NCBI GenBank assembly: GCA_016795065.1
Contig: JAEUIU010000049.1
Coordinates: forward strand, 1 to 64,000
DNA: 64,000 bases
Direction: 5' to 3'
Origin: Phycisphaerae bacterium
Lineage (GTDB): Bacteria > Planctomycetota > Phycisphaerae > Phycisphaerales > SM1A02
In this document: positions 8,240 to 34,185 of the stretch, piece by piece
How positions within the stretch are numbered: position 1 is the stretch's first letter
Layout: each line of letters starts with the position of its first letter
Position numbers and translations under genes: made by a program
The notes under the pieces: model-generated
Told to the model about the DNA's origin: nothing
Database searches by the model: none
The model's input: only the letters and a program-made list of their open reading frames with translations

Positions 8240-8917
8240 ATGACCTCGATCCTCGCGCGAGCCATGGGAGCCGGGTTTCGGAGGCTGCATCCTCGGCTTC
8301 AGGCCCAGTACTCGGTCACGAGCGAGTCGGGCATCGCGTGGGTGGGCCGAGGGGTCATGTCGAGGATCTGGAGCAAGGGTCTGCTCGTGGCTCCCTTCCT
8401 CCGACTGGGAGCCATGCGCCGGGTGATGTTTCCCGAGACGGGGACCGACGTTCCGTTCACCATTTGGAACTACGCCTACAAGGACGCCTTCGGGCGCGAG
8501 ACGCTTACCTGGATCAGGGAGTTCGAACTGTCGCCAGTCCGGCGATTTGACGAGACACTGGTCTTCAGTGAACGGCGGAAGCGAGCGGTGGTGTATGCGG
8601 GGACGCACCAGCACCTAGCGGTGGAACTCCACTTCGAAGCGGGCGACAACGGATCGCTGCGATTGCAGACAGGAATCCAACGGCTCTACGAGTGGCGAGT
8701 CGGTCTCCGCATCCCGAGGTTGGTGTCAGGTCATGCCCACGTCGTCGAGCGATTCAACGAGGTCGACGACCGATTCGAGATCGATGTCGGAATCGCGAGC
8801 CCCATCGTCGGACCGCTGTTTGGGTACAGCGGCTGGTTCCGGCTTGAGCCGTTCGCATGTCGCCGGGAGGACATTCCGTCCGATGCGATGCCTGTGCGCG
8901 AGGAGCGTCGCGACTAG
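8240..8917 (+). CDS. DUF4166-like protein
   Basis: A 225-residue protein without signal peptide or membrane segments. The opening FRRLHPRLQAQYSVTSESGIAWVGRGVM, a central FGRETLTWIREFEL, the AVELHFEAG strand region and the closing FEIDVGIASPIVGPLFGYSGWFRLE follow the layout of DUF4166, a domain of unknown function sometimes fused to saccharopine-dehydrogenase-like proteins. The chemical role is unknown. It stands alone, with about 240 bases of apparently non-coding DNA before the next gene. Confidence 0.6.
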   Translation: MTSILARAMGAGFRRLHPRLQAQYSVTSESGIAWVGRGVMSRIWSKGLLVAPFLRLGAMRRVMFPETGTDVPFTIWNYAYKDAFGRETLTWIREFELSPVRRFDETLVFSERRKRAVVYAGTHQHLAVELHFEAGDNGSLRLQTGIQRLYEWRVGLRIPRLVSGHAHVVERFNEVDDRFEIDVGIASPIVGPLFGYSGWFRLEPFACRREDIPSDAMPVREERRD

Positions 8918-9161
8918 CCGCAGGCCGACTCGCCAGCGTCGACACGCTCGCCGCGAGAAGCCGGTGGCACTGATCGATTGGCACGGGCACATGGCGTGGA
9001 CAGGGTCCCTCGCGGCCATGCCTGCGCTGCGCCCGAGATCGAAGCCCCGCTTTCGGTGCAATGAGCAAGGCGTTAGACGCCAGGACAATCGTGATGACGA
9101 CTTCCTTGCCCCCACTCGGTCACCTGTTACCGTGAGCGACACGGACCGTGGATCCCACCCC

Positions 9162-9860
9162 ATGTCGAATTCGCATCGCCCAGCCAGCCGTCAGGTGCTC
9201 CGACTTGCCGTAGCAAGTCTCCTACTTGCAATCCTCTCGTGCGATCGAATGTCCTCGCCGAGTGCTGGCGTGACCACGCCGGTCCAAGGCACTGCGCCGG
9301 CGATCGATGGCCCTGACGGCCTGTCCGGCATGCCGGCCTCACTCGGCTGGGAGGACATGAGTCCCGCGTGGGATCAGGAAGGGCCGAAGCTCCTCCTCAC
9401 TGGCACGATCTACGAGCCTGACGGTCGAACGCCCGCAGCGAATGTCATCCTCTACTACTACCACACCAATCGTGAGGGGAGATACGTCCACATTCCGTCC
9501 GAGCCGCGCAGCATGCCGCCCAATGACCTGGGCCAAACGCATGGTGCCCTGCGCGGCTGGGTGCGCACCGGACCCGACGGGCGATACGCGATTCGTACTA
9601 TCCGACCGGGAACCTATCCGACTCGCGACGAGCCGGCCCATGTGCATGCGACCATCAAGGAGCCGGGTCGCATCGAGTATTACATCGATGACTTCGTGTT
9701 CGACGACGACCCACTCCTCACCCCAGCCAAGAGACAGCGCATGGAGAACCGCTGCGGGAGCGGCGTGCTCCATCTGGTCGAGCGGGATGGTCTCCTGGTC
9801 GGCGAACGGAACATCGTCCTTGGCCTGAACGTGCCCCACGCGGCACGCCGGTACCGTTAG
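9162..9860 (+). CDS. Intradiol-dioxygenase-fold lipoprotein
   Basis: A 232-residue secreted protein. LRLAVASLLLAILSC (13-27) looks like a lipoprotein signal with C27 as the lipid-modified residue. The rest follows the catalytic fold of protocatechuate/catechol intradiol dioxygenases: LTGTIYEPDGRTPAANVILYYY (about 79-100), GWVRTGPDGRYAIRTIRPG (132-150) and PAHVHATI (158-165), in which H160 and H162 match the paired iron-binding histidines. Tyrosines near 100 and 142 could supply the other ligands. Extracytoplasmic members of this fold are common and often have no proven substrate. The ATG at 9162 gives the best signal peptide. Confidence 0.72.
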   Translation: MSNSHRPASRQVLRLAVASLLLAILSCDRMSSPSAGVTTPVQGTAPAIDGPDGLSGMPASLGWEDMSPAWDQEGPKLLLTGTIYEPDGRTPAANVILYYYHTNREGRYVHIPSEPRSMPPNDLGQTHGALRGWVRTGPDGRYAIRTIRPGTYPTRDEPAHVHATIKEPGRIEYYIDDFVFDDDPLLTPAKRQRMENRCGSGVLHLVERDGLLVGERNIVLGLNVPHAARRYR

Positions 9861-9906
9861 CCGCCTCCGCGCCACGTCCGGGGTCGATCCACACCGGTGA
9901 GCGATC

Positions 9907-11178
9907 ATGTCCGAGCTTCCGGTTCCGACTGGGGTCCCATGTCCACCGCACCCCACTCGCTTCCCACATCAAGTCGATCTCGCGACACCGGACGAGCACG
10001 ACATAACGCTAACTCAACTCCGACCACGGCCTCAAGGCCGCGTATCTGCGCTACTCCGTAGAGTCATTGGGATCGGGACACTACATTGCTCTCGGTTCCC
10101 AGAGCGGCCGTTCCTGGACATCCCAGACGCACCCCCAATCCTCCCTCTCGACGGAGTACTCGCATTGTGGAACGGAACTCCAGCCCCTGACGCTCCGGGT
10201 CTCCTAGAGAACGTCCTTGGCACCACGTGCTGCTTTGCCCTGGTCTTCATTGCATCCGTCGGGCTTCGATGGCTGCGAGCGTCACGGCCTGCATGGGATC
10301 GCCATCGGTGGCGTGCCATCTGGCTTCCTCTTGCCGGCTGGACCATTACGACTCTCGCGATAGTCCTCTTGGGCTTTTTCGTGAGGGAAGGAAGGACGAG
10401 GGAACTGGAACGCCTGCGCTCGTCGGGGACGCCTGTTGAGTTCCTCGACAATGAGCTCATGTCTTCGGGAGACATGGCAGTGGTTCAAGTCTTGTTGAGT
10501 TCCATCTCCTGTAGCCTGTGGGGGGCCGTTGCCTTTCTCCTTTGGCTTCGCGCACGACCCATTCGTGTTGTCGTGTTTCGGTCGTTCGCGGCAGAAATGG
10601 ACTCCCCCCTCAGACGGGCAGTTCAACTGGCGGGCGCGCACTGGGGGAGGGTCGATGCAATCGTGGCGCCGGGCGACACGATCGAGCATGAGAGTTGGTA
10701 CGGACGCAGTTGGGGGATCGTTGGCAGCAGTACGACGGATGCATGGCAACAGGCCATTCGGCCCCTGTTGCGGCGAGCGCGAGTTGCGATCGTCGATGTG
10801 AGTAAGATCACCGATGGCTTGCGATACGAGTTGATCGAGATCTCAAAAGCCCGTCATGTCCACGTAGCACTCATTGCAGACCGTCTCGATCCGAGCGGGG
10901 CGGCGACAGAACTCTGGAGAAAGCACTTTGAGGGAACCCCACCACCATTGGTGACGTACGAAGGCCGATCGTCGACCGAGTTCGTCAAGTCACTCCTGGA
11001 CGTTCTGGAGTTGCAAACGAAGCCGTTTGGACCGGCGTGGCGAGTGCATCGATGGTATGTCATGCAGTCGCTCGAGCGAGGTTTGGTGGTTCGAGGCATC
11101 CGGTGGTTTGGGATTGCCATCATCTGGTCGATCCTTGTGTGGGGGGTTGTTCAGTGCGCCCGCAATCTCTCCCCTTGA
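9907..11178 (+). CDS. Four-pass membrane protein with TIR-like cytosolic domain
   Basis: Not a family I can name with certainty (423 residues). Hydrophobic segments lie near 104-121, 137-159, 192-214 and 396-417. Between the third and fourth is a soluble domain (about 219-370) with a strand IRVVVFRSFAAE, GRVDAIVAPGDTIE, a W and helix (AWQQAIRPLLRRARVAIVDVSKITDG) and LRYELIEISKARHVHVALI. This alternation and the helix-borne RYELIEI glutamate resemble TIR-like or SLOG-like nucleotide-processing domains found in bacterial signalling and defence proteins. A defence role is inference. The N-terminal 100 residues are proline-rich and polar, so the true start may be later. Confidence 0.5.
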   Translation: MSELPVPTGVPCPPHPTRFPHQVDLATPDEHDITLTQLRPRPQGRVSALLRRVIGIGTLHCSRFPERPFLDIPDAPPILPLDGVLALWNGTPAPDAPGLLENVLGTTCCFALVFIASVGLRWLRASRPAWDRHRWRAIWLPLAGWTITTLAIVLLGFFVREGRTRELERLRSSGTPVEFLDNELMSSGDMAVVQVLLSSISCSLWGAVAFLLWLRARPIRVVVFRSFAAEMDSPLRRAVQLAGAHWGRVDAIVAPGDTIEHESWYGRSWGIVGSSTTDAWQQAIRPLLRRARVAIVDVSKITDGLRYELIEISKARHVHVALIADRLDPSGAATELWRKHFEGTPPPLVTYEGRSSTEFVKSLLDVLELQTKPFGPAWRVHRWYVMQSLERGLVVRGIRWFGIAIIWSILVWGVVQCARNLSP

Positions 11179-24424: not shown

Positions 24425-24432
24425 GGTATACT
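24425..24432 (+). promoter_or_regulatory. Extended -10 promoter candidate for cytochrome operon
   Basis: TGGTATACT fits an extended -10 box (TGN-TATACT) about 100 bases before the first cytochrome gene. No good -35 hexamer is seen, which is common for extended -10 promoters. The 225-base gap after the GH51 gene holds nothing else recognisable. Confidence 0.4.
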
Positions 24433-24533
24433 CCGATCAACTTATCCGGATTTGATGCCACGGCGCCCCTTGGGCTCTTCCGGCGAAACGCACAGGGGTT
24501 CAACCGCCGTGGCACGCCAAGGGACGGCCGCAG

Positions 24534-26837
24534 GTGCGTATCAGGTCCAGACAGCCCGTCGTGTGCGAGTCAACCGCATCCCCGCGAGCAGCTTTAGGAA
24601 GGGCGCTGGCCCCACTGCTGGCACTCCTTATCGCTCTCCTTCCGCTCCAGGCGGCCTTTGGACAAGCGGTTGGCGGCAAGGCGGTTGGAAGCGCTCCCGA
24701 CGACCCAGACAAGCGATGCCTGCAATGCCATGGGCAAGCCCACATCGGCAAGCTGACCCCAGCCGAGCGGCTCTCGATGGTAGGAACGTGGCTTGGAAGC
24801 GAACCCCGGCCCGCGACCGATGGCGCACCGCTCCCCACCCCCGCTCTTGACGGAACCGAACCCGAAGCTCGTCCCAATCTCTACGTGACGCGTGAGGCCT
24901 TGGCGGGAAGCGTTCATGCCAACGCGAAGTGCGTCGATTGCCACGAGGACGCCGCCCGGCTCCCCCACCAGCCAAAGCTGAATCTCCAGACCTGCGCTAC
25001 AACGTGTCACACCAAGGCCGCCCAGGCCTTCCCCACCGGTGCGCACGCCGATGCCCTCAAGCGGGGCGACCCCCTGGCACCGACCTGTGCCTCTTGCCAC
25101 GGCGGCCACAACATCCTCGCCGTCAGCGACCGCCACTCGCCGCAGCATCGACTCAACAGCATCTTCCTCTGCGCCGACTGCCACGAACGGCACATGAAGC
25201 CGACCCCGGCAGGCTATGCGCCGAAGGCCCATATCGACGCCTACCTCCAGAGTGCCCACGGGAAGGCCATCGCCGAAGCCGGGCTCGTAGCCGCACCGAC
25301 CTGTTCCGACTGCCACTCGGCCCACGCGGTACATCCGGTCGACCACCCGGACTCCCCCGTTCACCGCTCCAAGATCTACACGACCTGCGGTACCTGCCAC
25401 GTCGGCATCCTGAACATCTACGAGCAGAGCCTGCACGGCAAGCTCGCTTCGGAAGGCAATCTCGATGCACCCGTCTGCACCGATTGCCACACCTCGCACT
25501 CGATCGTGCAACACGACAAGGTGGCCTTCAAGCTCGCCTCAAGCGATCGCTGCGGCGCTTGCCACAAGGACCGCACCGAACACTACCGCGAGACCTTCCA
25601 CGGCAAGGCCCTCGCCCTTGGCCTGCCCAAGGTCGCGGCGTGCTACGACTGCCACGGCCACCACGACATCGTCCCCATCAGCGACGAACGCAGCCGGTTG
25701 CACGGCAACGCGAAGCTGGCGACCTGCCAGACCTGCCATCCCAGCGCGGGGCCGAACTTCACCGACTACATCGCCCACGCCGACCACACCAACAAAGAAG
25801 AGTACCCCGGCCTCTACTGGACCTTCGTCTTCATGACCTCGCTGGTCATTGGGACCTTCCTCTTCTTCGGCGCCCACACGATCCTCTGGTTTGCCCGCTC
25901 GGCCGTGCTCTACGTGCGCGACCACAAGGCCTTCAAGGAGGCCAAGCGGAAGATGGCCGAGGACCGTGAGACCTATGTCCGCTTCAAGCCCTTCGACCGG
26001 TTCCTGCATGTCCTGGTGATGACGAGCTTCCTCCTCCTCGTCGCGACTGGCATGCCGCTCAAGTTCTACTACACCGACTGGGCGAAGGAAGTGGTCCACT
26101 GGATCGGCGGGCTGGAGGCCGCGGCCCAACTGCATCGCTTGGGCGCGATCGTCACCTTCCTCTACTTCGTCCTGCACATCGGGAGCCTGCTGGTCCGAGG
26201 CTGGAACAACCGCGATCAATTCCGCAGCCCGGCGACTGGCCGCTTCAGCCTCGTGCAATGCGCGAAGTTCGTCTTTGGACCGGACTTGCCCTATCCGCAC
26301 ATTCAGGACGTGCGGGACTGGTGGGCCCATCAGAAGTGGTTCTTCGGGCGCGGACCGCAACCGCAATTCGACAAGTGGACGTACTGGGAGAAGTTCGACT
26401 ACATGGCCGTCTTCTGGGGCGTCGCGGTCATCGGCATCAGCGGCCTGGTGATGTGGTTCCCCGAGTTCTTCACTCACTTCTTCCCCGGCTGGATCATCAA
26501 CATCGCCCTCATCGTCCACAGCGACGAGGCCCTGCTGGCGGCCGGCTTCATCTTCACCTTCCACTTCTTCAACGTTCACTTCCGGCTTGAGAAGTTCCCG
26601 ATCGACTCGGTGATCTTCTCCGGCCGCATCTCCAAGACCGAAATGCTCCATGAGCGGAAGCGCTGGTACGACCGACTCGTCGCCAACGATCGACTCGACT
26701 CGATCAAGGTCGGCGACGAGTGGAAGCAATGGCGCCGCGTTATCCATCCGCTCGGCTTCCTTGCCTTCGGTCTTGGCCTCATCCTCCTCTTCCTGATCGT
26801 GGTCGCCATGACCTCTCGCCTGGGAGGCGGCTCGTGA
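24534..26837 (+). CDS. Undecahaem cytochrome c fused to membrane cytochrome b (copy 1)
   Basis: A 767-residue fusion. A signal or membrane segment (about 24-44) leads to a periplasmic domain with ten CxxCH sites, starting at residues 62, 133, 185, 213, 257, 285, 315, 340, 370 and 398, and one CX3CH (154). From about 428 the protein is a multi-pass b-type cytochrome like formate dehydrogenase gamma, HydC or thiosulfate-reductase subunits, with candidate haem-b histidines such as H492, H534 and H548. The arrangement recalls Geobacter CbcL, a quinol-oxidising cytochrome of metal respiration. The GTG start is uncertain, and another GTG lies 27 bases on. A paralogue overlaps by 4 bases downstream. 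Confidence 0.88.
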   Translation: MRIRSRQPVVCESTASPRAALGRALAPLLALLIALLPLQAAFGQAVGGKAVGSAPDDPDKRCLQCHGQAHIGKLTPAERLSMVGTWLGSEPRPATDGAPLPTPALDGTEPEARPNLYVTREALAGSVHANAKCVDCHEDAARLPHQPKLNLQTCATTCHTKAAQAFPTGAHADALKRGDPLAPTCASCHGGHNILAVSDRHSPQHRLNSIFLCADCHERHMKPTPAGYAPKAHIDAYLQSAHGKAIAEAGLVAAPTCSDCHSAHAVHPVDHPDSPVHRSKIYTTCGTCHVGILNIYEQSLHGKLASEGNLDAPVCTDCHTSHSIVQHDKVAFKLASSDRCGACHKDRTEHYRETFHGKALALGLPKVAACYDCHGHHDIVPISDERSRLHGNAKLATCQTCHPSAGPNFTDYIAHADHTNKEEYPGLYWTFVFMTSLVIGTFLFFGAHTILWFARSAVLYVRDHKAFKEAKRKMAEDRETYVRFKPFDRFLHVLVMTSFLLLVATGMPLKFYYTDWAKEVVHWIGGLEAAAQLHRLGAIVTFLYFVLHIGSLLVRGWNNRDQFRSPATGRFSLVQCAKFVFGPDLPYPHIQDVRDWWAHQKWFFGRGPQPQFDKWTYWEKFDYMAVFWGVAVIGISGLVMWFPEFFTHFFPGWIINIALIVHSDEALLAAGFIFTFHFFNVHFRLEKFPIDSVIFSGRISKTEMLHERKRWYDRLVANDRLDSIKVGDEWKQWRRVIHPLGFLAFGLGLILLFLIVVAMTSRLGGGS

Positions 26838-29059
26838 CATTGCCGCGTACACGTTTCCTGACGGTGCCCCTCATCGGGCTCCTCGCCTTTCTCGCCACCG
26901 GCGTGGGCCTCGCCCAGGTCGGTTCGACCGACGTCCCCGTCGACCCCAACAAGCGCTGTCTCCAGTGCCACGCCCAAGCCCGGATCGCTCAACTCGGCCC
27001 TGCGGAGCGGCGATCGATGGTCAACACGCTCCTCTCCGTCGACGGGCCTGACGCCCACGCGAAGCCCGAGCCGCAGACCACGGTCGAGCCGCTCAGCGGC
27101 AACGAGCCCGAGGTCCGTCCGGGACTTCTTGTCGATACGAATCACTTCGCCGGCGGACCACATGAGAAGGTCACCTGCGTCGAGTGCCACGCCGACTCGG
27201 CAAAGCTCCCGCACCCGGCGAAGCTCCAGAAGTCGACCTGCGCGACGACCTGCCATGCGACCGCTGCGGCGCAATACGAGTCGAGCTCGCACCATCTCGC
27301 CCTCCTCGGCGGCAACGAGCTCGCACCGACCTGCGCCAGTTGCCACGGGGGCCATGACATCCTCCGCGTCAACGACCGCAACGCCCCGCAGCACAAGCTG
27401 AACTCGATGTTCCTCTGCGGTGACTGCCACAAGCAACACCGACCCGACGGCAGCAACGGCGACCCCGCGTCGCACATCGGTGACTATCTCGATTCGGCCC
27501 ATGCCCGTGCGGTCACCAAGGCCGGGCTCACCACCGCAGCCACCTGCGCCGACTGCCACGGTGCCCACGGCGTCCTGCCGTCGAAGAACCCCGAGTCGCA
27601 GGTGAGTCGGACGAGGATCCCCGAGACCTGCGGCAAGTGCCATGTCGGTGTCCTCGAAACCTACGCCAAGAGCGTGCACGGCCTCAAGCACGCCCAGGTC
27701 ATGGACAAGGCCGCCGTCTGCAGCGACTGCCATACCTCGCACCAGATCACTCAGGCCAGTGCTCCCGGCTTCGCCGTCGACGTTCTCAACGAATGCGGCA
27801 GCTGCCACGACAGCGAGGACGCCCGCAAGAAGAACGGCACGGCACGCATCGGCACGTACTACCAGACCTACCTCGAGAGCTACCACGGGCAGGTCACCAA
27901 GCTGGGCGGCACCCGTGCGGCTCGATGCAGTGATTGCCACGGCTCACACGACATCCGCCCACTCGACGATCCCGAGTCGAAGGTCGCCAAGGGCAACCTC
28001 GTCGCGACCTGCGGCCAGTGCCACGAGGGCTCCAACGAGAACTTCGTCAGCTTCGACCCCCACGCCAACTTCCGGGACGCGAAGAACTATCCGCTCCTCC
28101 ACGGCGTGTGGCTCTACTTCATCATCCTGATGAGCACCGTGTTCACCTTCTTCGGGGTGCACACGATTCTCTGGTTCGTGCGGGCGGCGACCGAACGCCG
28201 TCGGCTTGCGGCCGAAGGCAAGCTCCATCATCCGCCGCACGCGGCCACTGCGATCCGCCGATTCACCACGCTCGACCGGATCAACCACGCCTTCGTGGCC
28301 CTCACCTTCTTCGGGCTCACCGCGACGGGCATTCCGCTCGTGTTCGCCGACGACCGCTGGGCAAAGAACCTCGCCAAGGCGTTCGGCGGCATCGAGGCGG
28401 CCGGCCTCTGGCACCGCTTCTTCGCAGCGCTCCTGATCGCCAACCTCGCCCTGCACTTCTTCGGGCTCTTCCGCAACTTCCTGCGGCGGAACTGTTCGTG
28501 GATGGAATGGCTCTTCGGCCCCAACTCGCTCATGCCGCGTTGGAAGGACGCCAAGGACATCACCGGCATGTTCCGGTGGTTCTTCGGTGGCCGTCAGCGA
28601 CCGAAGTTTGACCGCTGGACCTACTGGGAGAAGTTCGACTATTGGGCCGAGGTCGGTGGCTCGTTCATCATCGGCGGCTCGGGGATCTTCCTCTGGTTCC
28701 CCGAACTTACCTCCATCCTCGTGCCCGGCTGGATCTTCAACGTGGCCATGATCATCCACGGATACGAGGCCCTGCTTGCGATCTGCTTCATCTTCACGAT
28801 CCACTTCTTCAACGCCCACCTGCGGCCGGGCACCTTCCCGGTCGACGAGGTCATCTTCACCGGCAGCATGCCGGAAGAGGAACTGAAGGAACAACGCCCC
28901 GAGGAGTACGAACGGCTTGTCCGTACCGGACGCCTGGAAGCCCTCCGCGTCCCGGCCCCGGACCGATCGCGACGACCGGCGATTCTCGCCATCGCCATCA
29001 TCTCCGTCGGCTTTGGGCTCCTCCTCTTCGTCCTGATCATGATCGGAGGCCTCACCTGA
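26834..29059 (+). CDS. Undecahaem cytochrome c fused to membrane cytochrome b (copy 2)
   Basis: A 741-residue paralogue of the preceding gene with the same order of parts: signal segment (LIGLLAFLATGVGLAQ), ten CxxCH sites plus one CX3CH (CATTCH), then the b-type membrane cytochrome starting with the GVHTILWF-type segment. Blocks such as KRCLQCHAQARI, CASCHGGHDIL and FDRWTYWEKFDYWAE closely match copy 1, so the pair arose by tandem duplication and then diverged, perhaps toward different quinone potentials. GTG at 26834 overlaps the TGA of copy 1 (GTGA), which fixes this start and indicates coupled translation. Confidence 0.9.
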   Translation: MTLPRTRFLTVPLIGLLAFLATGVGLAQVGSTDVPVDPNKRCLQCHAQARIAQLGPAERRSMVNTLLSVDGPDAHAKPEPQTTVEPLSGNEPEVRPGLLVDTNHFAGGPHEKVTCVECHADSAKLPHPAKLQKSTCATTCHATAAAQYESSSHHLALLGGNELAPTCASCHGGHDILRVNDRNAPQHKLNSMFLCGDCHKQHRPDGSNGDPASHIGDYLDSAHARAVTKAGLTTAATCADCHGAHGVLPSKNPESQVSRTRIPETCGKCHVGVLETYAKSVHGLKHAQVMDKAAVCSDCHTSHQITQASAPGFAVDVLNECGSCHDSEDARKKNGTARIGTYYQTYLESYHGQVTKLGGTRAARCSDCHGSHDIRPLDDPESKVAKGNLVATCGQCHEGSNENFVSFDPHANFRDAKNYPLLHGVWLYFIILMSTVFTFFGVHTILWFVRAATERRRLAAEGKLHHPPHAATAIRRFTTLDRINHAFVALTFFGLTATGIPLVFADDRWAKNLAKAFGGIEAAGLWHRFFAALLIANLALHFFGLFRNFLRRNCSWMEWLFGPNSLMPRWKDAKDITGMFRWFFGGRQRPKFDRWTYWEKFDYWAEVGGSFIIGGSGIFLWFPELTSILVPGWIFNVAMIIHGYEALLAICFIFTIHFFNAHLRPGTFPVDEVIFTGSMPEEELKEQRPEEYERLVRTGRLEALRVPAPDRSRRPAILAIAIISVGFGLLLFVLIMIGGLT

Positions 29060-29130
29060 GCCAAGGCCCCGGCCAAGGTCGACTCGCATCTGCCGTCGGG
29101 CGCTTTCTCGACCGATTGGCCAGACCGCTC

Positions 29131-30606
29131 ATGACCATCCTGAGCGTGTCGGCGCAGGTCTTCGAACGCCATCGGCTCCTCTCGACGGTCGCGTCGCTTG
29201 CCATCATGGCCGGCGTCACCATCGCCGCGATCGTTCTCCTTCGCGACCCGACACCGACGCCCAACGTCGGAAGCTCGTCGCGGACGACGCAGACAGCCCA
29301 CCCCGCACTGCGACCCGATCGTCTCATCACCTTCACCGATGGCTGCCTCTCCTCAGAATGCCACGCCAACTACACGCTCGCCCCGGTCCAACACGCGGCG
29401 ATCGCTGAGTCGGCCTGCGAGACCTGCCACGCCTCCGACACCGGTGGCCATGTCTATCCGCTCCTGGCCCCGAAGGAGCACCTTTGCGCAAGCTGCCATG
29501 CGAAGTCGGAGCACACAACTTTCCAACACCGGGCGATGACGGAGGACGGATGCCTCGCCTGTCACGATCCGCACGTCTCGCACACCAAGGGGCTGTTGAA
29601 GGCCGCTTCGATGGACGAGGCCTGCGCCGGATGTCACCCGCGGACGACGGCCTCGTTCGCCCACAAGCCTTACGCCGCGGATCGATGCGATTCCTGCCAC
29701 GATCCGCATGGTTCGGACTTCCCGAAACTCCTCTTTTCTGGCGAAGGCGCCAACCACTGCCGGCAATGTCACTCGGATCTGGTTGATCGCGTCGAGGTCT
29801 CACCTCACTCGCACTGCGACATCGATGGCGGTTGCCTGGCCTGCCACGCGCCGCATGGCTCTGACCACAAACACCTGCTGCCCTCGGCCCCGCGCGACCT
29901 CTGCGTGACCTGTCACCCCAACGTGGGCAGCGCCGTCAGCGGCGCCCACGTCTCCCACGATGCCGTTCTCACCGGCGAACAGTGCGTCACCTGCCATGAC
30001 CCGCATGCGTCGCAGTTGCCGAAGATGCTCCGGGACAGCCAGACTGAGATCTGCCTGAGCTGTCACGCCAAACCGCTGAAGGCCGCCGACGGTCGGACGA
30101 TCGCCGCCCTTGCTGACGCGCTCCACAACTCGCCGGTCGTCCATGGGGCTATTCGCCACGGCGACTGCAGCGCGTGCCACGCAATCCACGGCGGCTCGCA
30201 CGCCAAGCTCCTCAAGGAAGCGGGACCGAATGAACTGCTCGCTCCCGGCGAGGCCCGCACCTACGCCCTCTGCTTCACCTGCCACGACCCAACGCTCATG
30301 GATCCGAAGGGGACGACCCAGTTCCGCAACGGCTCGCGCAACCTGCATGACCTGCATCTGCGCGGCGCGCAACAGTCACGCGGCTGCGGTTCCTGCCACG
30401 CCGCTCACGCTGGAAGCCTCCCGCGGCTCATCGCCACCACCGTCAACTTCCAAGGCTCCGGCTGGGCGATGCCCATGAAGTTCGTGCTCTCACCCGAAGG
30501 CGGAAGCTGCGCTCCGGGCTGTCACGAAAAGCTCTCGTACAGCCGCAACGCCGACCCCTCCACGTCGGACACAAGCGCTCACCAACCCACCGAGGTCACC
30601 CGATGA
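29131..30606 (+). CDS. Membrane-anchored 15-haem cytochrome c (copy 1)
   Basis: A 491-residue cytochrome with one N-terminal transmembrane anchor (about 18-37) and no b-type part. It has 13 CxxCH sites, one CX4CH near the start (CLSSECH, residue 72) and one CX3CH near the end (CAPGCH). Many sites sit in repeated CxxCHDPHxS/A units, the pattern of paired-CXXCH (doubled haem) domains. It should reside on the periplasmic face and pass electrons on from the b/c fusions. I used ATG at 29131, 71 bases after the previous stop. The frame is open upstream, so a slightly longer N-terminus is possible. Confidence 0.87.
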   Translation: MTILSVSAQVFERHRLLSTVASLAIMAGVTIAAIVLLRDPTPTPNVGSSSRTTQTAHPALRPDRLITFTDGCLSSECHANYTLAPVQHAAIAESACETCHASDTGGHVYPLLAPKEHLCASCHAKSEHTTFQHRAMTEDGCLACHDPHVSHTKGLLKAASMDEACAGCHPRTTASFAHKPYAADRCDSCHDPHGSDFPKLLFSGEGANHCRQCHSDLVDRVEVSPHSHCDIDGGCLACHAPHGSDHKHLLPSAPRDLCVTCHPNVGSAVSGAHVSHDAVLTGEQCVTCHDPHASQLPKMLRDSQTEICLSCHAKPLKAADGRTIAALADALHNSPVVHGAIRHGDCSACHAIHGGSHAKLLKEAGPNELLAPGEARTYALCFTCHDPTLMDPKGTTQFRNGSRNLHDLHLRGAQQSRGCGSCHAAHAGSLPRLIATTVNFQGSGWAMPMKFVLSPEGGSCAPGCHEKLSYSRNADPSTSDTSAHQPTEVTR

Positions 30607-32147
30607 TCGCCCGGTCGATACCGATCCTTCTCATCGCCTTGGCCATCGCAGCGGTTGCCACCGCTTCTTGGTACGCCGGCCCGCAGGTGCTGGACCAAAA
30701 GGCAGCGCCACCCCATTCAGCGCTGGACAAGACCGGCTCCACCGAGCCGCCGCCCTCGAGCGTGATCGCCCGCGAAGGCTGCGTCACACCCACCTGTCAC
30801 CCGGGCATCAAGGACCGTCCCTTCCTGCACGGCCCCGTTCAGGTAAACGGCTGCGACGGTTGCCACACCCTGGTCGATCCGGTGAAGCACGCCTTCCAAC
30901 CGGTAGCCTCACGCGAGGCGATGTGCGCCCTCTGCCACATGCCCGAGGTGAGCGAGTCGCCGGTCCTCCACGAGCCCTTTGCCAAGGGTGACTGCCTCAG
31001 TTGCCACGACCCGCACGGCTCAAGCGAGGCCCGACTGCTGCGCGGCGAACGATACGCCGACGCCTGCCTGACCTGCCACAAGGACATGACCGGTGGCCAC
31101 GACCAGGTACACGGCCCAGCGTCGGTCGGGGCCTGCGGCGCCTGCCACGAACCGCACGCGTCGAAACTCCCGAAGCTCCTCAACGCCGAAGGCCGCGACC
31201 TCTGCTTGACCTGCCATGTTCGCACCGCGGTCGAGATCGAGCAGAGTTCCGTCGTCCACGCCCCCGTGCTGGGCGAGTGTCGGGTGTGCCACGATCCGCA
31301 TGCCACCGACAACGCGTCGATTCTGATCGAGGAGCCGTCGAAACTCTGCCTCAACTGCCATCAGGACATCGCCGACACGGTGCACAGCGCGACCACTCAG
31401 CATGCCGCCGTCACCACCAAGCGTGCCTGCCTCAACTGCCACTCGCCGCACGCGGGCAACCACGCGTCGCTCCTTCGTGATGACGTGAAGCTCCTGTGCT
31501 TCGAGTGTCACAACCAACCGATCAAGATGGAGGACGGCTCGACGCTGGTGAACATGAAGTCGGTCATCGAGACCGGCAAGAGCCTGCACGGCGCGGTGAC
31601 CCAGCGGAGTTGCGCCGAGTGCCACGAGATCCATGGCGGCGGCCACAAGCGCCTCCTCAACAACGAGTATCCCTCGGACCTCTACTACCCCTTCGGCGAG
31701 AACGCTTACGCCCTCTGCTTCAGTTGTCATGACCGGCAGTTGGTGCTTCTCCCGCACACCGATTCGGCGACCGGCTTCCGAAACGGCACGACCAACCTTC
31801 ACTACGTCCATGTGAACCAGGACAAGAAGGGCCGCTCCTGCCGGATGTGCCACGACACCCACGCGGCCAACCGCGAGAAGCACATTCGCGACGACGTCCC
31901 GTACGGCCCTTCGGGCTGGAAGCTGCCCATCGGCTATCAGCAGTCTGTCGACGGCGGCAGTTGTGCGGGCGGTTGCCACCCGGCTTACGCGTACAGCCGC
32001 GTCGAGGCGATTCCACATCCCCCGGTCCCTGCCGGCGCCAAGGAAGGCGCGTGGAAGGGCACCGATCTCATTCCGGGCTCCCGGGCGGAACCGCCCACCT
32101 CAACCAAGTCGGAACCGCCCAAGTCCCCCGGATCCACCACGAAGTAA
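30603..32147 (+). CDS. Membrane-anchored 15-haem cytochrome c (copy 2)
   Basis: A 514-residue paralogue of the preceding protein: N-terminal anchor (about 7-22), CX4CH first (CVTPTCH, residue 60), 13 CxxCH sites, then a final CX3CH (CAGGCH). The shared C-terminal layout (YALCFSCHD, FRNGTTNLH, SGWKLP, GGSCAGGCH) shows the duplication. A proline/serine/lysine-rich tail of about 45 residues is unique to this copy. ATG at 30603 overlaps the previous TGA (ATGA), so the two are translationally coupled. Together with the b/c fusions this gives a duplicated two-component chain. Confidence 0.9.
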   Translation: MIARSIPILLIALAIAAVATASWYAGPQVLDQKAAPPHSALDKTGSTEPPPSSVIAREGCVTPTCHPGIKDRPFLHGPVQVNGCDGCHTLVDPVKHAFQPVASREAMCALCHMPEVSESPVLHEPFAKGDCLSCHDPHGSSEARLLRGERYADACLTCHKDMTGGHDQVHGPASVGACGACHEPHASKLPKLLNAEGRDLCLTCHVRTAVEIEQSSVVHAPVLGECRVCHDPHATDNASILIEEPSKLCLNCHQDIADTVHSATTQHAAVTTKRACLNCHSPHAGNHASLLRDDVKLLCFECHNQPIKMEDGSTLVNMKSVIETGKSLHGAVTQRSCAECHEIHGGGHKRLLNNEYPSDLYYPFGENAYALCFSCHDRQLVLLPHTDSATGFRNGTTNLHYVHVNQDKKGRSCRMCHDTHAANREKHIRDDVPYGPSGWKLPIGYQQSVDGGSCAGGCHPAYAYSRVEAIPHPPVPAGAKEGAWKGTDLIPGSRAEPPTSTKSEPPKSPGSTTK

Positions 32148-32221
32148 ACCCCACCGTTTGCCATCACAGATCCCCGGAGCGCCCCCAGCCGCTCGATTCC
32201 AATCGCTGGCAAGGAGCAGCC

Positions 32222-33250
32222 ATGCTCAACCACCGCACGCTCATTCATACGCTCTTCGCTCTCGCTCTCGCCGCGACCCTGTCGCTCAGTGCCCGCGCGG
32301 ACAACTTCCGCAACGTCAACCGGGGCGAGCCCTTCCCCGCCTTCAAGCTTCCCGCCATCGACGGATCCACCGTCGACAGCGAGTCCTTCAAGGGTTCGGT
32401 GGTGGTCCTCCTCTGCCTCTCCGCCGAACAGCGGCGTTCTGAGTTGGCCGCGATGGATTCCGATGCCGTCGTTCACGATCTCGGCAGCGACGAGGTCAAG
32501 ATCATCCACGTCACCGCCGACGTCATCCAGAAGGCCTACTTCGAGAAGTTCCGCCAGGACCGCGGCATTCGCGCCGCGCTGGCCCTCGACGCCGAGCGGG
32601 CCCTCTACGCGAAGCTCGGCCTGATCGTCTTCCCAACCACCGCGGTCATCGGAAAGGACGGGAAGCTCACCAACGTCATCTCCCTCCATGACACGCGCTA
32701 CAAGCACGTCCTCGACGCGGAGATCCGCCACGCCCTCGGCCAAATCGACGACAAAGAGCTAGCCAAGCGGCTGAGCGAGCAACCCTCCAGCGACAGCTCC
32801 CCGAAGAGCGTCGCCTCGGCTCACCGGGCCCTCGCCCGATCGCTGCGCGAGAAGGGTCGTTTCGACGCCGCCAAGGACGAGTTGAAGAAGGCACTCGAAC
32901 AGGACCCGGACAACCCCGAGATCATGTTCGACATCGCCGACCTCGCCCTCAGCATGAAAGACTTCGACAGCGCCGATGCCGAAGTCCAGAAGGTCCTCGC
33001 CAAGCAATCGGACAATCGCCGGGCGAAGCAACTCAAGGGAATCGTCCTCTTCCACCGTGGCAAGCTGGATGAGGCCCGCACCGAGCTCGAGGCGGCCCTA
33101 AACCTGAACCCCAATCCCGAGATGATTCACTACTACCTCGGCCGGATTTACGAACAGAAGGGCGAGGCGACCAAGGCCCTTGAGCACTACCGCGAAGCCC
33201 TCCGCCGATTCGTCCATGAACCGGGCGACGCGCCGCAGACCCGCCCGTAA
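32222..33250 (+). CDS. Exported thioredoxin-fold/TPR protein
   Basis: A 342-residue protein with a cleavable signal (MLNHRTLIHTLFALALAATLSLSARA). Residues about 28-175 follow the AhpC/TlpA-like fold: GEPFPAFKLPAIDGSTVDSESFKGSVVVLL, later FPTTAVIGKDGKL. The position of the usual CxxC reads CLSAEQRRSEL, so only one cysteine remains and it cannot act as a classical dithiol reductase. The C-terminal half has about four TPR-like helices (REKGRFDAAKDELKKALEQDPDNP and similar). Being last but one in the cytochrome operon, it may help apocytochrome handling or complex assembly. That is inference. A GAGCAGCC stretch precedes the ATG. Confidence 0.78.
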   Translation: MLNHRTLIHTLFALALAATLSLSARADNFRNVNRGEPFPAFKLPAIDGSTVDSESFKGSVVVLLCLSAEQRRSELAAMDSDAVVHDLGSDEVKIIHVTADVIQKAYFEKFRQDRGIRAALALDAERALYAKLGLIVFPTTAVIGKDGKLTNVISLHDTRYKHVLDAEIRHALGQIDDKELAKRLSEQPSSDSSPKSVASAHRALARSLREKGRFDAAKDELKKALEQDPDNPEIMFDIADLALSMKDFDSADAEVQKVLAKQSDNRRAKQLKGIVLFHRGKLDEARTELEAALNLNPNPEMIHYYLGRIYEQKGEATKALEHYREALRRFVHEPGDAPQTRP

Positions 33251-33429
33251 GGCCATCGTGCACTCGTCGGAGTGCCCTGCAGAGAACCCACATCTGACGC
33301 CCGGGTCGCGCTCCCACGCGATCCGGGCGTTGTCGCACGGCGCACCTCTGCGGCGGACTTTTCACCGTTCTTCATCTGATTCGTATTCACTTGCACAAAG
33401 ACCAGACTTTGCTTGGCAAGGAGGACTTC

Positions 33430-34185
33430 ATGTCCAGCATTGCACGCACCGTTTGGATTGGCAGTTTCACCGTGAGCGCCGTCGCTGCGCTCGTTACGAC
33501 AGCCACGAGCCTTGGCTACGACAAGTACAGCGACGGTTGCCAGAATTGCCACGGCAGCTTCCTTGGCGGCACCTCACCCCAGGGAACGATCTTCCCCGAG
33601 CAGAACAAGCACCAGATGCACCGCGGTAGCCTCTACATGGCCACCAAGTGCAACCTCTGCCACACGGGAAGCGGCTACAGCAACGTGTACATGGGCAGTT
33701 CCAATGGCACGTCACTCAACCCCGGACTCGGTTGCAACGGCTGCCACGGCCACGATTACGGCGGTTCGGTGGGAGTCAGCGGAGCGGGACTCCGCAAGCA
33801 TCATGCCTCAGCGGGCGTGAGTGTCTGCGCCGATTGCCATACCAACGACCCGATTCCGCTGGGTGAGAACGTCAAGCCGACCTATTACGGCACCACCGAC
33901 ACCAAGTGCAACGACCCCTGCAATGCGGCGCCGGGATTCAAGGAGAACTGGAGCGTCGGCGACACGGTGGGCCTCGACAACGACGGCGATCTCCTCTACG
34001 ACGGCGCCGATCCAGATTGCCAACCCTGCCCTGCCGCCGACCTCACGGGCGACTGTCAGGTCAACGCCGCGGACGTCGCGATTCTGCTTGGCGCCTGGGG
34101 CGGCACCGGTGCCGCCGACCTGAACGGCGACGGCAGCGTGAACGCTGCAGACCTGTCGATCCTTCTCGGAGCGTGGGGCACGTAA
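33430..34185 (+). CDS. Secreted tetrahaem cytochrome c with dockerin-like tail
   Basis: A 251-residue protein with a signal peptide (about 1-30) and four CxxCH sites (C37, C74, C102, C133). After a D-rich stretch (GLDNDGDLLYDGADPDC) comes a dockerin-type I-like pair of calcium-binding repeats, 204-250: DLTGDCQVNAADVAILLGAWG and DLNGDGSVNAADLSILLGAWG. Such tails are abundant on secreted proteins of Phycisphaerae and may anchor or sort them. Here one is attached to an electron carrier. AAGGAGG at 33418-33424 sits 5 bases before the ATG at 33430, the best ribosome-binding site in the window, and decides the start over an in-frame codon at 33391. Confidence 0.88.
   Translation: MSSIARTVWIGSFTVSAVAALVTTATSLGYDKYSDGCQNCHGSFLGGTSPQGTIFPEQNKHQMHRGSLYMATKCNLCHTGSGYSNVYMGSSNGTSLNPGLGCNGCHGHDYGGSVGVSGAGLRKHHASAGVSVCADCHTNDPIPLGENVKPTYYGTTDTKCNDPCNAAPGFKENWSVGDTVGLDNDGDLLYDGADPDCQPCPAADLTGDCQVNAADVAILLGAWGGTGAADLNGDGSVNAADLSILLGAWGT

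Follow-up and report, generated by a model that had tools for sequence, protein, structure and literature searches.

A 56-haem gene cluster in a Phycisphaerae genome as the likely inner half of a trans-envelope electron conduit

Six co-directional genes in a stretch of Phycisphaerae DNA hold 56 haem c sites between them, which raises the question of where so many haems would draw electrons from and where they would send them. The stretch analysed here (the window) comprises bases 1 to 64,000 of contig 89 of a genome of 4.99 Mb that is 95% complete. The closest named matches to the locus come from Phycisphaerales metagenome assemblies. The genes are named A1, A2, B1, B2, T, and C in their order along the + strand, and they encode two fusions of a multihaem c domain with a cytochrome b domain, two 15-haem proteins, a thioredoxin-fold protein, and a tetrahaem protein. 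We consider it likely that they form one half, that of the inner membrane and the periplasm, of a trans-envelope conduit for electrons in the Phycisphaerae, which probably runs outward; the outer-membrane half would be encoded around a gene, here called P, on another contig of the same genome.

In a scan of all six frames of the 64-kb window, every one of the 50 CXXCH sites on the + strand lies within positions 24717 to 33826, and the − strand has a single CXXCH, at position 32702, antisense to T. With CX3CH and CX4CH motifs included, the total is 56, i.e., 11 each in A1 and A2 (10 CXXCH and 1 CX3CH), 15 each in B1 and B2 (13 CXXCH, 1 CX3CH, and 1 CX4CH), 4 in C, and none in T. Four-base overlaps join A1 to A2 (GTGA at 26834) and B1 to B2 (ATGA at 30603). 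An earlier annotation made from the DNA letters (the sequence-only reading) had described two 11-haem b/c fusions, two 15-haem proteins, a thioredoxin-fold/tetratricopeptide repeat (TPR) protein, and a tetrahaem protein, with about 56 haem sites in less than 10 kb; the motif counts and Pfam matches agree with this description, and both overlaps are found where it had placed them. Since the motif histidines are invariant in the A and B families and the Pfam cytochrome matches lie above the cut-off, the haem clustering is far from chance.

The cytochrome b/c fusions and the 15-haem proteins

A1 (24534 to 26837, + strand; 767 residues) takes the form of an N-terminal hydrophobic segment, 11 c-haem motifs, and a C-terminal FdnI/CbcL-type cytochrome b domain, and A2 (26834 to 29059, + strand; 741 residues), which begins with a GTG codon overlapping the stop of A1, has the same architecture. 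In both proteins, Pfam matches above the cut-off were obtained to Cytochrome_C7/c3 and then to the Ni_hydr_CYTB (cytochrome b561) domain. All 11 motif histidines are invariant among 12 aligned A-type sequences and are balanced by 11 further invariant histidines in the c domain. The A-type profile matches FdnI in the PDB (1kqf_C), and the FdnI b-haem ligands, which we take to be numbered H18, H57, H155, and H169, align to H485, H527, H642, and H657 of A2, respectively; these four are invariant in 12 of 12 sequences. Simple hydropathy places about six membrane segments in A2 from residue 424 onward, and two additional membrane histidines beyond the FdnI ligands, His443 and His541, are invariant in the same alignment, so that a third b haem, or quinone-site residues, at these positions is possible. 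Because the b-haem ligands are conserved, we infer that A1 and A2 would oxidise menaquinol at the b domain and pass the electrons to 11 bis-His c haems each.

A1 and A2 share 42% identity. A tree of the b domain was built from the last 345 residues of 88 rows by a quick method without bootstrap, with Shimodaira-Hasegawa-like approximate likelihood ratio test (SH-aLRT) supports and a midpoint root; rows from seven loci duplicating others, loci numbered above L111, and proteins of 640 residues or fewer were left out. The A1 of the window falls in a clade of nine planctomycete proteins (support 98) nested with Verrucomicrobiota and Gemmatimonadota (99), and A2 falls in a different, mostly planctomycete clade (99). 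As A1 and A2 stand in separate supported clades (98 and 99), a recent tandem duplication is rejected, and the pair is, as judged from this tree, an old combination of paralogues. The sequence-only reading had called the system duplicated, which holds for the paralogy of the two proteins and fails for a recent local event. A third clade (99) gathers relatives from Bacteroidota, Acidobacteriota, Calditrichota, Aminicenantota, and others, many of them of about 940 residues with 19 haems. In Maribellus and Draconibacterium (Bacteroidota; L062, L067, and L108), a 19-haem CbcL-like fusion has 7-haem and 4-haem neighbours.

B1 (29131 to 30606, + strand; 491 residues), whose start was taken at 29131 within a longer open reading frame opening at 28642, carries 15 c-haem motifs and an N-terminal membrane anchor (hydrophobic residues 19 to 37). 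B2 (30603 to 32147, + strand; 514 residues), whose start overlaps the stop of B1, also carries 15 motifs and has a hydrophobic N terminus, which would be an anchor or a signal; in each protein, hydropathy gives one such segment. Both match the doubled-CXXCH family Paired_CXXCH_1 above the Pfam cut-off. Among 25 B-type sequences, the 15 motif histidines are all invariant and are balanced by 14 invariant histidines and one that is 96% conserved. Since the motif histidines of the A and B families are matched by an equal count of conserved further histidines, their c haems all seem to be bis-His ligated with no open catalytic haem, as befits wires rather than enzymes.

The structure model of B2 (mean predicted local distance difference test [pLDDT] score of 81.5) has a single PDB match at E < 0.001 in Foldseek, namely 6r2q_A (E = 3e-6, 231 columns, 27% identity, template modelling [TM] score by target = 0.58). 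The entry title gives just the Mtr complex, and chain A is presumably MtrA. VIA-align superposes the model on this chain with a Z of 9.4 over 186 residues (root mean square deviation [rmsd] = 4.4), and the B profile matches it at E = 1.1e-37; the remaining VIA-align rows, which include hydrazine dehydrogenase and octahaem nitrite reductases, are middling (Z ≤ 4.9) and were given no weight. In NCBIfam, the DmsE/GSU2203-type families score below their cut-offs, with 115.5 bits for B1 and 123.3 bits for B2 against 192.2 for TIGR03508, and 77.9 and 123.8 bits, respectively, against 325 for NF041028. Given these scores and the 15 haems, "MtrA-like" is used here for the predicted fold and likely role of the B proteins and not for family membership. 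B1 and B2 are 35% identical, and they also look like old paralogues, since the best matches in relatives again fall into distinct B1 and B2 classes. B-type relatives with 25 haems and about 1,150 to 1,220 residues occur at L173 7822-11280 (G045) and L174 7092-10748 (G056). On the fold and ligation that the model and the alignment suggest, B2 and the membrane-anchored B1 would carry electrons over the periplasm, a route that we infer, with T helping in assembly or docking.

Protein P and the gene order in relatives

The second haem-rich locus of the window genome lies on contig 79 (L162 and L163). A 6-haem gene comes first, and next is a block of genes for a 4-haem protein, an NHL protein, a 5-haem protein, P, a second NHL protein, and a 12-haem protein. 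On the other strand after this block are a 15-haem relative of B, a 12-haem NapC-like relative (26% identity), and two kinases; a relative of T and another 15-haem protein follow further on, and then 4-haem, iron-sulphur, and NrfD-type genes (G000:C79:52716-58560; L163 2716-8560), which resemble alternative complex III or an Nrf-type complex.

P has 680 residues and no haem motif. No Pfam match at E = 0.01 was obtained for the three homologues scanned, and an NCBIfam match to "phage tail tube" was disregarded as sub-threshold (25.2 bits against a cut-off of 60). The C-terminal residue is phenylalanine in 10 of the 11 homologues listed. The model of the L033 homologue has 33 predicted strands, 27 of them of at least 8 residues, and 43 PDB matches at E ≤ 0.001; the 50 matches listed are outer-membrane barrels (LptD, FhuA, OmpU, FimD, and others). 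P is a candidate outer-membrane β-barrel. The NHL proteins and the 5-haem protein show lipoprotein-like cysteine placement (by eye, with one lipobox match), and the 4-haem, NHL, 5-haem, and second NHL proteins are probably lipoproteins, with the 12-haem protein predicted to be secreted. The sequence-only reading had noted that the window contains no outer-membrane porin, and a candidate barrel is now located elsewhere in the same genome. MtrB/PioB (PF11854) was rejected as the missing porin for these genomes, as it occurs in 0 of the 61 genomes compared, i.e., the window genome and 60 relatives.

The distribution of P follows that of A closely. Among the 61 genomes, A-type proteins occur in 12 and P in 12, of which 11 are shared (A only in G012; P only in G020), and within-family shuffling of P gave 11 shared genomes in 5 of 200,000 trials; the sole other genome of the same genus has no A-type protein. 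A sample of 198 genomes of the class was searched with the A profile at E = 1e-40 and the P profile at E = 1e-20. A was found in 46 genomes, a count that takes in CbcL-like proteins that are shorter or have 19 haems, and also partial matches, beside the 11-haem type, and P in 53; both occur in 45, A alone in 1, P alone in 8, and neither in 144. P is therefore present in 45 of 46 A carriers vs 8 of 152 others (Fisher p = 4.7e-35, ignoring relatedness). The listed A and P matches lie on one contig in 22 of the 45 genomes, and their starts are within 20 kb of each other in 13, where random placement expects about 0.4 (45 × 40 kb/4.8 Mb). A profile search of relatives kept the best 80 of 578 confirmed matches, so that the spread over phyla is a lower bound. 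P was found in 16 of 28 A-bearing genomes picked from these 80, some of whose assemblies are also in the other samples; the 16 are 14 of the 15 Planctomycetota, one from Sumerlaeota, and one weak match from Gemmatimonadota, and 12 genomes are without P. P was not found in the two Bacteroidota genomes searched (L062 and L067).

At 17 of 19 distinct P places read, many of them chosen for a nearby A gene, NHL and 12-haem genes directly follow P (the 12-haem gene of L177 was seen in the overlapping L033). This pattern breaks at L215, whose 12-haem match is divided between two genes, and at the Sumerlaeota locus, where the order is A, B, T, 5-haem, NHL, and P (L055/L220). In some genomes the two halves share one array. 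Ten genes run on one strand in L216 (G219:C72) in the order A2, 12-haem, B, B, T, 5-haem, P, NHL, 12-haem, and 4-haem, and L217 (G173:C17) keeps this order, also on one strand, with two additional genes between T and the 5-haem gene. One of them encodes a 9-haem protein that matches cytochrome c554 and doubled-CXXCH families. The product of the other (8269-10752) has 10 haems and belongs to the OmcA/MtrC family (TIGR03507, 283.4 bits with the cut-off at 209.3; PF22113, 152.3 with the cut-off at 30). In conduits of the Mtr type, OmcA and MtrC are the cytochromes at the cell surface, so that a component recognised as extracellular is present in this array. The inner and outer halves lie on opposite strands in L212 (G119:C48) and converge. 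Near P in L214 (882-3884; G148), a 20-haem protein combines an NHL/Vgb-type β-propeller with doubled-CXXCH repeats.

Gene C (33430 to 34185, + strand; 251 residues) encodes a tetrahaem protein with an N-terminal hydrophobic segment by hydropathy and a GC-type dockerin tail, the match to which is above the cut-off in Pfam and just below it in NCBIfam. In the relative G022, the P block includes a full-length homologue (52% over 235 residues) some 5 kb away from P, and this proximity, together with the shared arrays, ties the window genes to the outer-membrane block. C itself may have an accessory role as a tetrahaem protein sorted to the surface. Stretches of about 50 residues that resemble C, probably its dockerin tail, occur in other proteins of the window genome (L030 6001-8289, L031 4962-8294, and L164 15156-16709) and are perhaps a sorting signal. 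Gene T (32222 to 33250, + strand; 342 residues) encodes a thioredoxin-fold (AhpC/TSA) protein with TPR repeats. A role as a thiol redox enzyme is disfavoured because CXXC is absent from 10 of 10 sequences, and T is a probable assembly or docking factor.

The sequence-only reading had proposed a search for the same gene order, and A1-A2-B1-B2-T recurs in full at L032 and L036. A2 is the member present in most of the relatives' loci read. A1 stands beside or near the A2 cluster at six distinct loci (the window, L018, L042, L032, L036, and L091); at most other loci read A1 is absent, and a 12-haem protein whose N terminus resembles NapC lies between A2 and B1. This protein was found at 14 distinct loci (L021, L022/L038, L033, L034, L037, L039, L040, L043, L044, L045, L028, L212, L216, and L217), among which L033 reads in two frames and L043 matches over the first two thirds only. 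A1 and the 12-haem protein occur together at 0 of 20 distinct loci with readable neighbours (L020, L035, and L041, with a contig end or a missing neighbour, were left out), and the six A1 loci show just weak partial similarity to it, of 30 to 32% over about 100 residues (L042, and L167 adjoining L018). Since the two share none of these 20 loci, A1 seems to take the place of the 12-haem protein.

In the gene tables of family f4 (L021, L026, and L027), a Rieske/cytochrome b6/petD-pentahaem set and a third 15-haem protein lie upstream, with Pfam matches obtained on L021. At L021 11015-14803 these are a Rieske protein, cytochrome b6, and a petD-like protein fused to five haems, with equal gene sizes in L026 and L027. 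This set contrasts with the available part of a class survey (PMC11266412), according to which no Phycisphaerales genome has a bc1 complex. Several loci have a PilS-like kinase, a HAMP kinase, a PhnD-like binding protein, or an NtrC-type regulator, and such sensor and regulator genes lie near the module at L018 6903-12239 and at L028 11709-15183 and 18363-19742. A sigma-54 promoter, as might be shared with NtrC-type regulators, was sought and rejected for the window, where no good site precedes A1 and 3 matches were found vs 5.5 in shuffles. Sites scoring at least 10 of 12 positions are somewhat commoner before the A genes of relatives (10 of 87, including some duplicate loci, vs 16 of 591 controls). 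A sigma-70 scan gave 0 sites and is uninformative at 65% GC. By Pfam, an α-L-arabinofuranosidase gene lies upstream of the cluster, and genes for an extracytoplasmic function (ECF) sigma factor and a Ser/Thr kinase lie downstream.

Direction of flow and rival explanations

Gene order and co-occurrence suggest how the path would continue: the P block of contig 79 would take electrons from B1 and B2 across the outer membrane to an acceptor outside the cell, e.g., Fe(III)/Mn(IV) minerals, humics, or a partner cell. The sequence-only reading had proposed a quinol-to-periplasm or surface conduit, which gains support and is extended here, as the b-haem ligands are kept, B2 is MtrA-like, and P co-occurs and shares arrays with A. 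Several observations weigh against such an outward conduit. The barrel model of P is weak, with a mean pLDDT of 57.5, an unreliable N-terminal third, and a TM score of about 0.2 to known barrels. In the window genome, the inner half and the P block lie on different contigs. TIGR03507 matches none of the six genes of the window, and no OmcA/MtrC-family gene was found in the scanned parts of this genome, the rest of which was not searched for one. A occurs without P in G012 (82% complete) and G118 (99% complete), P occurs without A in eight genomes of the class sample, and outside Planctomycetota P was matched in just 2 of 13 A-bearing genomes tested, one of them weakly.

The same proteins could be run inward, with electrons from extracellular Fe(II), a cathode, or a partner cell passing through the P block and the B proteins to reduce quinone at A1 and A2. 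According to the part of PMC6295460 that was available, homologues of CbcL/MtoC/MtrH occur in Fe(III) reducers and Fe(II) oxidisers alike, and two PF00115 genes (haem-copper oxidase family: oxidase or nitric oxide reductase) in the window genome could serve as the electron sink, provided that they encode oxidases and not nitric oxide reductases. RuBisCO was not found in this 95% complete genome, in which other CO2 fixation routes were not searched, and a carbohydrate-active gene adjoins the cluster. With two PF00115 genes and no RuBisCO, the organism looks like a facultative heterotroph, so that outward flow is preferred and we regard inward flow as unlikely.

A second alternative keeps all electrons within the periplasm, where A1/A2 and B1/B2 would be a hub that feeds soluble reductases such as NrfA or octahaem nitrite reductase with no outer-membrane crossing. 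An NrfA-type gene is present in the window genome (G000:C86:23453-24685; L194), and the 12-haem NapC/NrfH-like protein of relatives resembles the donors of nitrite reductases. NrfA is nevertheless not associated with A, being found in 5 of 12 A carriers vs 13 of 49 other genomes (p = 0.31; Pfam cut-off, with a few matches short and weak), and NrfA also occurs in the sister genome G001, which lacks both A and P; as none was found among the proteins scanned either, NrfA was rejected as the partner. The sequence-only reading had noted that the window holds no terminal reductase and had named a nitrite, sulfite, or tetrathionate reductase beside homologues as evidence that would speak against it. 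No other reductase was found among 10 window proteins and 50 proteins from other loci scanned with Pfam, or in the NCBIfam scans, most neighbouring genes having not been scanned. As a periplasmic hub would also leave the association with P and the shared array unexplained, we consider it very unlikely. The idea that the 56 haems are mainly a periplasmic capacitor bridging an interrupted acceptor supply, which the very high haem number and the apparently uniform bis-His ligation of A and B would suit, deserves hardly any credence, because it leaves the barrel P and its conserved order with probable lipoproteins and secreted cytochromes unexplained.

Comparison with known systems

The balance of the evidence tips modestly towards a broader reading, in which P, with NHL proteins on its flanks, would represent a separate type of cytochrome conduit across the outer membrane that has no name so far and, with the CbcL-like and 15-haem MtrA-like inner half, would make the Phycisphaerae a large and mostly unrecognised group of electroactive heterotrophs. 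Both A and P are present in 45 of the 198 class genomes, roughly a quarter, a sign that electron exchange with the outside may be open to many of these bacteria, most of which are uncultured. Neither this gene set nor P was found described in a literature search of open-licence papers, without preprints, although a description may exist elsewhere. In the portions of the papers available, the Phycisphaerae are described as a class of many environments with few cultured members and scarce experimental evidence on metabolism, and mtrBC was looked for by profile (PMC11266412); electroactivity was raised as a possibility from cytochrome counts for a Phycisphaerales genome rich in multihaem cytochromes in a bioanode community (PMC9039326); and porin and porin-cytochrome conduit (PCC) genes for iron reduction were searched and figured in a study of planctomycete genomes (PMC10732223). 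If P is the outer-membrane gate, MtrB-based surveys miss this conduit, and the gene set is a direct marker for testing electroactivity in the class.

The available text of PMC6295460 describes CbcL/MtoC/MtrH as a family with 3 to 23 haems in 15 phyla, with two Planctomycetes homologues, in which a multihaem c domain at the N terminus is joined to a di-haem b domain that resembles HydC/FdnI and has about six membrane helices. The A proteins share this build and keep the b-haem ligand histidines (12 of 12 sequences), whereas they have 11 haems rather than 9, stand side by side as old paralogues, and have two more invariant membrane histidines (443 and 541); their likeness to CbcL is set by architecture and the published description and not by direct comparison with the Geobacter protein. 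In a similar way, the B2 core folds like the decahaem cytochrome MtrA and shares doubled-CXXCH repeats with the MtrA/DmsE/GSU2203 group, whereas the B proteins have 15 haems rather than 10, B1 has an N-terminal anchor, the NCBIfam scores are sub-cut-off, and MtrB/PioB is lacking in the 61 genomes.

A resemblance of another kind is seen to clusters of Desulfovibrio ferrophilus (DFE_0448-0451 and DFE_0461-0465), in which multihaem cytochromes lie beside NHL-repeat proteins; they are likened by gene content only, and unlike here, no porin is recognised there in the available part of PMC9769857. Geobacter PCC and Ext systems are porin-cytochrome conduits. Like the conduits MtrCAB and PCC3 (available part of PMC10734462), the present system has a candidate barrel by multihaem cytochromes that is linked to an inner-membrane quinol module, and one relative's array (L217) holds a decahaem cytochrome of the OmcA/MtrC family. 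Unlike them, P has no Pfam or credible NCBIfam match and is flanked by NHL β-propeller proteins, the inner and outer halves stand in a single array in some genomes, and the window locus has no OmcA/MtrC gene. Set beside these systems, the build of the quinol oxidoreductase is already known, and P may be a new conduit family.

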